A DNA stretch of 64,000 bases, taken from the NCBI GenBank assembly GCA_903904755.1, contig CAIVDV010000069.1:1-64000 (forward strand), given 5' to 3'. The notes beneath the pieces are model-generated. The model saw only the letters and a list, made by a program, of their open reading frames with translations. It was not told the origin of the DNA and made no database searches. The DNA comes from an uncultured Acidobacteriaceae bacterium. Lineage in GTDB: Bacteria; Acidobacteriota; Terriglobia; Terriglobales; Acidobacteriaceae. Positions 40,844 to 43,018 of this stretch are shown in pieces (within the stretch, counting starts at the first letter, position 1; the number at the start of each line of letters is the position of its first letter). The translations under genes were made by a program, and so were the position numbers.

Positions 40844-40881
40844 GGCGCTGATCCACTTAAACCCTGTTTAGGATCAGCGCC
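40844..40881. terminator. Hairpin overlapping the end of the XRE gene
   Basis: A perfect 11-base stem (ggcgctgatcc at 40844-40854, complement at 40871-40881) lies between convergent genes. Its right arm is inside the last codons of the regulator at 40857-41564, so the terminator uses coding sequence. Confidence 0.6.
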
Positions 40882-41564
40882 ACCCGCCCCGCAATCGCGT
40901 CATTCGGCGTCTCGTCGCCCTCCAGCTCCATCACTTCCAACGCAGACCCCGGCTCGTACCCCCGCAGCACCAGTCGGTCCGCATGGAACTCCACATACCG
41001 CACCGCCAGCCTGCCCGCATCGTTCCTCACCGCATACAGATTCGCCTCGCCCGGTACGTAGTTCACCAGCGAGTTGTAGTGCCGGTCCAGCACCAGCAAC
41101 GCCTCCGGCTTCAGCACCGGCTCCATTCCTGCCACATCCTTCCCATCCACCTCAATCATGACGAATCGCGCCCACTGCCGCCGCGTGGCTGTGCATCTCG
41201 GACGCAACTCCTCCAGCATCTTTCCTGGCATCACCACCATCCGCACCACCGCCGATGGACGCAGATACGGCTCATGCAGCGCCACACTATGCGCCACCAG
41301 CGGCACCGCATCCCGTTCTGCCAGTTGCTCGCTCTGCAACTCCCCCCGTGGCGTCGGCATCAGGTCCTCTGCAGTCATCCGAATCGCCGCCAGCACACGG
41401 TCCAGCGTCTCCAGCGAAAGACCCCTCCGGCCATTCAGAAAATTCGATACATGCGACTGTCCCACATCCGATTGCCTCGCCAGCAGAGACACACTCAGCG
41501 TCCCACGCTCGATCCTGCGGCGCAGCTCGAGGCGTAAACGCTCCTGCAACTGGGTGAAATTCAT
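40857..41564 (-). CDS. XRE-type regulator with C-terminal S24-like domain
   Basis: This 235-residue protein has an N-terminal helix-turn-helix (SLLARQSDVGQSHVSNFLNG, about residues 26-45) and a C-terminal region (about 100-235) whose strand order, ending in NLYAVRNDAGRLAVRYVEF and VMELEGDE, resembles LexA/CI (S24) dimerisation domains. No clear Ser-Lys self-cleavage pair was identified, so it may not be a protease. Targets are unknown. It is convergent with the sugar kinase gene. Confidence 0.65.
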   Translation of the reverse strand: MNFTQLQERLRLELRRRIERGTLSVSLLARQSDVGQSHVSNFLNGRRGLSLETLDRVLAAIRMTAEDLMPTPRGELQSEQLAERDAVPLVAHSVALHEPYLRPSAVVRMVVMPGKMLEELRPRCTATRRQWARFVMIEVDGKDVAGMEPVLKPEALLVLDRHYNSLVNYVPGEANLYAVRNDAGRLAVRYVEFHADRLVLRGYEPGSALEVMELEGDETPNDAIAGRVALILNRV

Positions 41565-42168
41565 GGTGTGGAAAATTTACTCGTAGCAATAGCACAGTCC
41601 GGTCAAGGCTTGCAGCAGGAAAACCGATTTTCGCCAAATATCCCAAATTCCAGTCAACTCCCCATTCAGCCAGCAACCGAATTCTCTGAAATCCACGGAA
41701 CCCATTGACTAAAAAGAACAATAACCCTAGATTCTGTTTACTTTATCAATCGGCTTTTGTGGATAACTCTGGGGGCCTCTCTGTCCCATCGTATTGTCGG
41801 CCTGACGGTCGTCGACGGTCACAGGACTCAAGATTCCCCGGGAACGCCATCTTTTTCGGCATTCCGCCTCCTGTTGCGGACTCAGTCCACGGTCTCTTGC
41901 TGGCACAACCACGTTGTGTCTCGCGGCAGTCCTTCGCCGCCATCCAGCACCGGCCGCCTGTCTCCCTTCTCCAGGGGTTTCCACAAACGCTCCTTGAAAT
42001 TCCAGGATCTGCGCACCATGAGCAAGACCTTCGATCAGAGCGGGCAACCGGCCATCCCCCAGCAGGGCGTGAGACACCTGCGCGGCCTCTTTCCCTCTCG
42101 TTTACCCAGCGGCTCGTTGACGATTCCATATCCGCCGCTGGTGTTCGTTGCTTTTGGGAGAGCAAACC
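41565..42168. other. Long non-coding stretch before the zinc-ribbon/sigma pair
   Basis: No convincing protein gene was found. A good sigma-70-like promoter (41705-41733) points rightward, giving a transcript of about 430 bases before the next start codon. Reading frames on both strands are unlike bacterial proteins. It may be a long leader or a separate small RNA. Confidence 0.5.
41705..41733 (+). promoter_or_regulatory. Sigma-70-like promoter
   Basis: TTGACT at 41705-41710, a 17-base spacer and TAGATT at 41728-41733 are well matched and lie in an AT-rich patch. The predicted start is near 41740, far upstream of the zinc-ribbon gene at 42169. Confidence 0.55.
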
Positions 42169-42378
42169 ATGGATGTGCAAGTTCAACTAAAAGTCTGCGA
42201 GGGGTGCGGCTGTCTTTGGTACCGCCCCTCCGTTGATGCCAGAGTCTATTGCCAGCCTTGTAACGAGCGTCTCAAGGACTTTCCTACTCCGGAAAGCCGA
42301 AAGCGCCGCGGGCGGCCAAAGAAAATCGCGCTTCCCACTGTCTGGGCAGTCGCGGAAGCCACAGGAGGCATACAATGA
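42169..42378 (+). CDS. Small zinc-ribbon protein with AT-hook-like tail
   Basis: The 69-residue protein has two Cys pairs, CEGCGCLW near residue 9 and CQPC near 29, forming a likely zinc ribbon. A basic RKRRGRPKK segment near 45 matches the AT-hook core that binds the minor groove of AT-rich DNA. No enzyme motif is visible. The ATG at 42169 has gggag upstream. Its stop overlaps the start of the sigma-like gene (ATGA), so both are translated together and probably work together at promoters. Function is not known. Confidence 0.7.
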   Translation: MDVQVQLKVCEGCGCLWYRPSVDARVYCQPCNERLKDFPTPESRKRRGRPKKIALPTVWAVAEATGGIQ

Positions 42379-42914
42379 GCGCCGCGCTGGCCATGCCAGC
42401 CGCCGCTCCGCATTTCCAACCGATCGACACCATTTGGGCCATGAGCGGCATGGGACAGCGGAAGCCAATCGCTTCCGCCGCATCCCTCATCCGGCAGCAG
42501 GCAACCCCTGCCCCGCCGGTGCCACAGGAAACAACGGTACCCGTTGTCTCCTACGCCTTCTACCGCAGGCACACGGAAAACCTGCTCCGGCGTTACCTCT
42601 ACGCCTCCATGCAGGTTGGCCGCACTCCCGAGCTGCTCAGCGACTCCGTCGGTCGCGGCTGGGCTTCCAGCCGCCGCATACGGACCTTTGAAGACGCAGT
42701 CATCTTCGTCCTCGATGTGGAGCGCTGCCTCAGTCGGCTCACCCCGCTTGAGCGCCAGCTCGTTACCCGGGTCATCCTGCAGGAGTACACCCAATCTGAG
42801 GCGGCTTCCATGCTCGGCGTCTGCACGCGCACGGTCAGTACAAGGCTGTCCATCGCGCTCGATCGACTCACCGAAATCCTCCTCGCGGCGGAAATCCTCA
42901 TCCTGCCCTGCTGA
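42375..42914 (+). CDS. Sigma-70 region-4-like protein
   Basis: The 179-residue protein has a disordered N-terminus (about 1-55) and a C-terminal domain resembling sigma region 4, with LSRLTPLERQLVTRVILQEY followed by the helix-turn-helix YTQSEAASMLGVCTRTVSTR near residues 136-155. A sigma region 2 is not recognisable, so it may be a specialised regulator rather than a full sigma factor. It is coupled to the zinc-ribbon/AT-hook gene. Targets are unknown. Confidence 0.7.
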   Translation: MSAALAMPAAAPHFQPIDTIWAMSGMGQRKPIASAASLIRQQATPAPPVPQETTVPVVSYAFYRRHTENLLRRYLYASMQVGRTPELLSDSVGRGWASSRRIRTFEDAVIFVLDVERCLSRLTPLERQLVTRVILQEYTQSEAASMLGVCTRTVSTRLSIALDRLTEILLAAEILILPC

Positions 42915-43018
42915 CGGGCAACCACACCCCGGCATCCTTCCCAACCTCCTCGGGCGGGCAGGATGCCGGGCGTTTTGCATGCAAACACGTCCCAGCCGGA
43001 ACGGTGTAGCCTGTGGGC

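Follow-up and report, generated by a model that had tools for sequence, protein, structure and literature searches.

The window analysed here, a stretch of 64,000 nucleotides that forms part of contig C69 in an 83-contig assembly, carries two short overlapping genes that raise a simple question: what does this pair control, and by what means? The first gene, z (42169 to 42378, + strand), encodes a 69-residue zinc-ribbon protein recognised from its ORF translation and from homologue searches. The second, s (42375 to 42914, + strand), encodes a 179-residue protein in which a sigma-region-4-like helix-turn-helix (HTH) is preceded by a conserved helical domain. A first-pass annotation of this DNA had described z by its two cysteine pairs and its RKRRGRPKK tail and had noted the overlap with the 179-residue s; the reading frames are arranged just so, with an overlap of 4 nt (ATGA).

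The gene pair and its neighbourhood

The cysteine pairs of z (Cys10-x2-Cys13 and Cys28-x2-Cys31) bound a zinc-ribbon core (42196 to 42261, + strand) that is defined by residues invariant in relatives. The invariant part reads LKxCExCGxL..R plus CxxC in 20 of 20 aligned relatives, with Cys10, Cys13, Cys28, Cys31, E11, G14, L16 and R19 unchanged in all of them. No significant Pfam family is found for z itself; 7 of 20 relatives match Zn_ribbon_TFIIB (best 2.6e-5), and a search of PDB sequences returns chance-level matches, mainly polymerase zinc ribbons (best 0.015). The basic tail (residues 44-52; 42298 to 42324, + strand) is conserved only in the genus and its nearest relatives. The earlier emphasis on a zinc-ribbon/AT-hook protein thus survives in its first half but not in its second, and the AT-hook-like tail was dropped as a defining feature of z.

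Pfam matches s to sigma-70 region 4 (PF04545, 7.8e-9; PF08281, 6.6e-8), placing the HTH at residues 118-165 (42726 to 42869, + strand), and finds no region 2. On this ground a full ECF sigma factor, the outcome that the annotation had said would refute it, was rejected. Its statement that s has only region 4 holds in that this is the sole sigma domain found, but a conserved helical part, defined by invariant residues and modelled helices, precedes the HTH (residues 61-122; 42555 to 42740, + strand). Conservation of s is strongest in this block, and Y63, R64, T67, L71, R83, P85, F105, E106, I110, D114 and E116 are invariant. The AlphaFold2 model of s (mean pLDDT 78, pTM 0.62) leaves the first 60 residues without structure and predicts helices at residues 61-81, 85-89, 105-120, 124-135, 140-147 and 151-171.

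Comparisons of this model point to sigma region 4 and, over a longer span, to a phage antiterminator. No PDB entry reaches E 0.001 with Foldseek, whose best hits are ECF sigma region 4 domains at E 0.01, and the PDB sequence search likewise finds sigma region 4 (best 1.7e-4). With VIA-align, the top Z is 10.1, for SigL region 4 over 73 residues, while residues 58-176 align with the antiterminator Q21 at Z 8.1-8.2 over 95-96 residues (rmsd 3.2, 10% identity). Q21 thus ranks below the sigma region 4 chains by Z but aligns the most residues among the 50 matches listed, and the program cautions that helical models often reach Z values of this size. DUF6456, under which GafA homologues are annotated according to the accessible part of PMC9638019, is matched weakly by 2 of 20 s relatives (best 0.001, 19.6 bits, HTH part only), and none of 20 family members reaches its Pfam cut-off of 26.3 bits. 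Because these matches are only weak, s could not be established as a proven GafZ homologue; no direct comparison with the GafZ sequence was made.

Inside z, a sequence read as the ribosome-binding site of s (AGGAGG; 42363 to 42368, + strand), also on the basis of the relatives' junctions, lies 6 nt 5' of the s start. Of 31 genomes, 29 allow the exact 4-nt overlap of s start and z stop, as do 84 of 90 loci drawn from named contigs and IMG/VR (z is found in 89 of the 90), some of these loci coming from the same genomes as the set of 31. These counts take as the s start whichever start codon lies closest to the z stop; they demonstrate a start codon at exactly that place and leave its use as the start unproven. 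As judged from sequence, the overlap is more than chance. One genome, G028, has z interrupted by an in-frame stop.

The pair is also conserved as a unit. A search of 61 relatives located z in 32 genomes (31 from the same family, plus a weak class-level match at E 0.007) and s in 31, every one from that family. In a sample of 297 genomes from the phylum, 31 of them listed as Acidobacteriaceae, the s and z profiles match the identical 26 genomes, with one match each, and all 26 are Acidobacteriaceae. Among the genomes sampled, z-s is a fixed unit of this one family, as its neighbourhood of a repressor and a phage cluster would explain, and the separation of the two genes in relatives, which the annotation would have taken as refutation, does not occur. 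An origin as a gene of known phage isolates was rejected, P0002 being unmatched at E 1e-3 in 50,697 phage records.

Upstream of the pair, a divergent Cro/CI-type repressor gene (40857 to 41564, - strand) encodes 235 residues with an N-terminal HTH (HTH_3, 7.4e-6). Such a repressor precedes the pair divergently in 35 of 41 loci, which were chosen for the presence of s or z. In the repressor family, 9 of 24 members match Peptidase_S24 (best 7.6e-9), and the C-terminal part is LexA/S24-like in relatives. The window's copy has no Pfam S24 match, and the family profile lists only HTH regulators, antitoxins and one anti-CRISPR among PDB sequences, without S24; an S24 domain in the window's repressor was rejected on these negative searches. 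The residue before the repressor's conserved MxP is Ser in some relatives and Gly, Ala or Pro in others; the window's copy has Gly.

A putative sigma-70 promoter of z-s, TTGACT-17-TAGATT (41705 to 41733, + strand), fits a loose pattern. Of 32 gaps between repressor and z, 19 contain such a pattern facing z, at a distance of 71-173 nt from the start of the repressor, a count without a chance control. At the other end, a terminator-like hairpin with a T run, read from the sequence as intrinsic in type, ends the z-s operon (42928 to 42976, + strand); it is the operon's own terminator and distinct from the leader terminator of the phage cluster. In 11 of 41 loci (L210, L217 and nine others), the repressor-z gap also holds a small + strand ORF family of ~70 residues that is not among the window's ORFs.

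The phage cluster and its leader

After s, a one-direction phage cluster with an HK97-fold capsid, portal, terminase and adaptor follows in 19 of 29 stretches, which were picked by hand for inspection. No cluster follows s in 9 of the 29, all from the window's genus or g9. The cluster comprises about 14-17 families, among them a head-tail adaptor, the terminase large subunit, the portal and an HK97-like capsid, with further protease-like, scaffold-like, long fibre-like, HipA_2 and DUF3037 proteins (protease, scaffold and fibre being labels from a reading of the proteins). The portal matches PF04860 (9e-55), the terminase phrog_2 (6e-23) and the adaptor phrog_442 (2e-13), and the capsid model is similar to HK97-fold shells, so that one of the features by which PMC9662315 characterises gene transfer agents (GTAs), the use of caudoviricete-derived proteins, is present. 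Between terminase and portal the clusters retain a HipA_2-like kinase and a DUF3037 protein (in G151, L240:12696-14668). In the remaining one of the 29, G304 (L272, g40), an internal deletion seems to have removed most of the cluster, the genes between its first one and the small ones at its end, leaving s and the leader in place.

The probable target of control is invisible in the window because in this genome the cluster, with 14 genes, lies on another contig, C64, unlinked from z-s. The same 14 genes are unlinked in six other genomes (window's genus and g9), and purE/purK follow in 6 of these 7. Host genes read as purE/purK and/or an E2-lipB-lpd block follow the cluster in 12 of 20 linked loci; of the remainder, six stretches end too early and two (G196 and G024) are without host genes. 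In Terracidiphilus gabretensis (G484), regulators and capsid lie ~748 kb apart on one contig. A second GTA feature, full endogenisation at several loci, is seen in the chromosomal position, the recurring host neighbours and the unlinked regulators of the window's genus.

Across 200 genomes of the family, the capsid profile is found in 115 and s in 148: both occur in 110, s alone in 38, the capsid alone in 5 and neither in 47 (Fisher p 9e-17). This value is only a guide, since the genomes are related and draft gaps add noise. Genomes with s and no detected capsid include G001, at 98% completeness. In 199 genomes of the phylum the capsid is found in 20, all within the family.

The leader of the cluster has the same plan in both arrangements: a -10 element and, close by, a strong hairpin with a T run, the hairpin mostly starting 17-40 nt past the -10, which in the linked arrangement is extended (TGnTANNCT). 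This -10 and terminator pattern occurs in 20 of 26 leaders versus 5 of 260 shuffles. These 26 leaders served to make the pattern; they exclude G001, G013 and G022, where no cluster adjoins, and G196, where s is not in the stretch. Applied unchanged to 20 held-out genomes, hand-picked from those with s and capsid on one contig, the pattern is found in 16; it occurs in 4 of 300 shuffles and in 9 of 178 real control stretches, which follow long ORFs that were not checked as genes. A feature of Q/AlpA-type antiterminators, an intrinsic terminator just past the promoter, is thus present in 16 of 20 held-out genomes, though not in the window's own, and a strong leader terminator was found neither there nor in T. 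gabretensis. In two genomes, G033 and G204, the called start of the first cluster ORF falls within about 10 nt of the terminator end, and since this leaves no room for another promoter, the cluster operon should depend on read-through.

Further elements surround the -10. TGTCAA stands 96-99 nt before it (positions -102 to -90 allowed) in 49 of 58 anchored leaders versus 1 of 560 other TANNCT sites, each such site counted once; the choice of anchor carried a TGTCAA bonus, which favours matches in leaders. Three of 61 leaders, a set that includes a few loci lacking a detected capsid, had no anchor and stand outside the 58. In the window's own genome TGTCAA lies exactly 97 nt ahead of a deviant -10, TAGGAT. 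Where the -10 is near the s stop, the TGTCAA element overlaps the 3' end of s, and TGTCAAGAG encodes Cys-Gln-Glu; in several relatives the C-terminal Cys-Gln-Glu of s overlaps this promoter element, so conservation there may reflect DNA. At the -35 position, with its start some 27 nt ahead of the -10, a TTGGC-like block is conserved (there are no binding data), and the consensus after the -10 is A-rich. A dyad spanning the spacer was seen in some genomes only, five in number (G151, G212, G288, G160 and G033). The sequence TAANNNNTTGA, which we take to be the consensus of an IHF-like site, occurs with at most one mismatch in 20 of 49 anchored leaders versus 37 of 1740 control windows, and 16 of these 20 leaders share one spacing; on sequence grounds a putative IHF-like site in the leaders is a lead only. 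In three g40 genomes (L240, L238 and L270), the promoter unit after s appears in tandem, twice.

The reading of the pair as an unusual transcription-control module gains support from three sides: the divergent repressor, the phage cluster and the conserved promoter-terminator before it. It is likely that z-s regulates the phage cluster.

Inheritance and viral relatives of the cluster

In 24 genomes, protein distances correlate with those of recA at r 0.67 for the capsid, 0.68 for the terminase, 0.70 for the portal and 0.63 for s, and mean identity is 0.78 for the capsid and 0.86 for recA. Median dN/dS is 0.15 for the capsid, 0.28 for the portal, 0.37 for the terminase, 0.38 for s and 0.10 for recA, taken from pairs with dS under 1.5; the values are rough because dS is high in many pairs. 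A tree of capsid, terminase and portal has 10 of 21 splits in common with a recA nucleotide tree, against a mean of 0.3 with shuffled labels. Ten pairs of strongly supported splits conflict, and in these it is the cluster tree, not the recA tree, that holds the genus groups g1 and g40 together. The cluster genes look constrained, and look to have followed the host largely, not fully.

Relatives filed as viruses fall into several kinds. Among the 26 IMG/VR loci whose capsid identity is 68% or more (L283-L308), 24 have four or more cluster families, and these seem to be fragments of the Acidobacteriaceae cluster that have been classified as viral. Loci at 45-53% capsid identity have relatives of portal, protease, capsid and adaptor, and no relative of z, s, HipA_2 or DUF3037 in the parts available. 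On other IMG/VR contigs, by a reading of the ORFs, z-s ends tail-like operons or adjoins integrase-like ORFs. On the same reading, two contigs classed as viral, L326 and L328 (G503 and G504), have z-s at the end of a tail-gene operon, L326 with an integrase-like ORF. A scan of 18 stretches from viral contigs with z-s found the compound promoter only in L335, which has cluster genes.

Explanations and known systems

The preferred explanation, considered probable but well short of secure, is that z-s is a Q/GafZ-like late activator-antiterminator pair, under control of the repressor, that belongs to a domesticated GTA-like phage cluster. What was computed in its favour is the co-occurrence and overlap of the genes, the divergent repressor, the cluster, the promoter-terminator architecture and the predicted fold. 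The divergent repressor, CI/RogA-like, would hold z-s off; once it is relieved, z and s would be made together via translational coupling. The s protein, as a Q21/AlpA/GafZ-like protein with a sigma-4-type HTH, would then load in the region of the -35 position and spacer of the compound promoter and carry RNA polymerase through the intrinsic terminator that lies just past this promoter, which would allow transcription of the head-tail operon. As its zinc-ribbon partner, z may act at the distal TGTCAA site or on the polymerase. Binding, repression and the role of z are inferred, as is antitermination, which is nonetheless the best-supported mechanism for z-s.

Three other explanations were weighed. 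The pair might activate initiation only, with s a split or partial sigma factor or a -35 co-activator and the terminator an insulator or attenuator; sigma region 4 domains are indeed the best structural matches by Z, the promoter's conserved block sits at the -35 position, and the accessible part of the GafA paper considers an alternative-sigma role for GafA. This is unlikely, as s has no region 2 and the -10 precedes the terminator, with no other promoter space in G033 and G204, where read-through is needed. That the pair controls ordinary host genes in the window's genome, its link with the phage cluster being ancestral, is held to be very improbable: pair and cluster are unlinked in the window's genus and s is kept without a detected capsid in 38 of 200 genomes, yet the window's own genome has both, with TGTCAA at 97 nt. 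Moreover, s matches judged by eye are partial or split in 6 of the 38 capsid-less versus 1 of 110 capsid-bearing genomes, counts to which contig ends may contribute.

An ordinary prophage lineage, active or decaying, with z-s as its late regulator and no GTA, is also doubtful. It is favoured by the position of the T. gabretensis cluster inside the published 2018 prophage interval 'Cluster 153', known from a partial source, and by the presence of z-s in IMG/VR contigs of viral class, two with ORFs read as integrase-like. Against it, the same host genes follow the cluster at 12 of 20 linked loci, the other eight being too short or without them, and at 6 of 7 unlinked loci, and the capsid combines a mean identity of 0.78 in 24 genomes with a median dN/dS of 0.15 and has no inner stops in 116 matches from 115 genomes. 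Nor was any integrase found within 50 kb of cluster or regulators on the same contig among the matches listed (25 genomes, matches to E 6.7e-22); integrases are common in these genomes, the nearest listed lying 51 kb off (G020), and in drafts any distance that spans two contigs stays hidden.

It is plausible that the cluster works as a gene transfer agent, with particle production and DNA transfer only inferred. The full proposal is that of an unrecognised, independently domesticated Acidobacteriaceae GTA, kept in much of the family, with z-s as its antiterminator and with a repressor, distal site and terminator-guarded promoter in parallel with the Caulobacter GTA; on this, belief and doubt are evenly balanced. 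Acidobacteriaceae are common in soil and peat. If they make GTAs, one way in which genes are exchanged in soil has been catalogued as prophage or viral contigs, and a further GTA lineage would exist in another phylum. With Caulobacter, terminator-guarded late promoters would then be suggested as a recurrent check on domesticated phages.

The cluster has been met before under another name. Eichorst 2018 (PMC5900883) assigns 700000-740000 of LAIJ01000009 in T. gabretensis to an acidobacterial prophage, 'Cluster 153', and this interval contains the T. gabretensis cluster at about 712.8-731.6 kb; in the portion of that paper available it is called a prophage, without regulators, promoter or a GTA reading. 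In openly licensed literature, as far as titles and abstract starts extend, no GTA is described in Acidobacteria or its genera, and a search of the same literature for an acidobacterial sigma-like/zinc-ribbon antitermination module found none. Like RcGTA, BaGTA and BhGTA, as the accessible text of PMC9662315 presents them, the acidobacterial cluster has caudoviricete-type capsid, portal and terminase, is endogenised at more than one locus and looks largely, though not fully, vertical in its inheritance. Unlike the case of these known GTAs, its particle and transfer are inferred, and no acidobacterium is among the producers named in the introduction of that paper, as far as it is available.

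Q proteins and AlpA occupy a site between -10 and -35 and let transcription continue past an intrinsic terminator further down; in lambda Q a zinc finger is inserted (PMC9371919, PMC6606751, both available in part). By these partial accounts, the acidobacterial system resembles Q21, lambda Q and AlpA in its HTH protein, putative promoter-embedded site and intrinsic terminator just downstream; its predicted fold aligns with Q21 over 95 residues, though at a lower Z than with sigma region 4 chains, and it is like lambda Q in having a zinc part, and like AlpA in being putatively held off by a repressor. It differs in that no sequence similarity was found, the zinc part is a separate gene, the site is not clearly between -35 and -10, and a -10-like pause element in the initial transcribed region is not shown.

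The nearest parallel lies in Caulobacter (PMC11150451; PMC9632790, each seen as partial text), where RogA represses gafYZ and GafY binds at -123 to -113 relative to the start, with IHF in the interval; for GafZ there are a sigma-like HTH by prediction, a putative element lying between -10 and -35, and evidence of antitermination; the leader of that GTA carries tandem repeats that terminate. So far as these texts extend, shared points are an activator operon of two genes, the second of which encodes a sigma-like HTH, a LexA-like repressor (RogA) missing key catalytic residues, a distal activator site with an IHF site (in the acidobacterial leaders both are inferred from sequence, the IHF-like site as a lead only), a terminator between promoter and structural genes, and regulators away from the cluster. 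The first acidobacterial gene, by contrast, encodes a zinc ribbon rather than a DnaA-like protein, s matches DUF6456 only weakly, the phage cluster and the phylum are different, the conserved block sits at the -35 position, and as a rule one hairpin terminator lies near the -10. By analogy, the acidobacterial module would have much the same order of parts as the Caulobacter and Q systems, built from different proteins.
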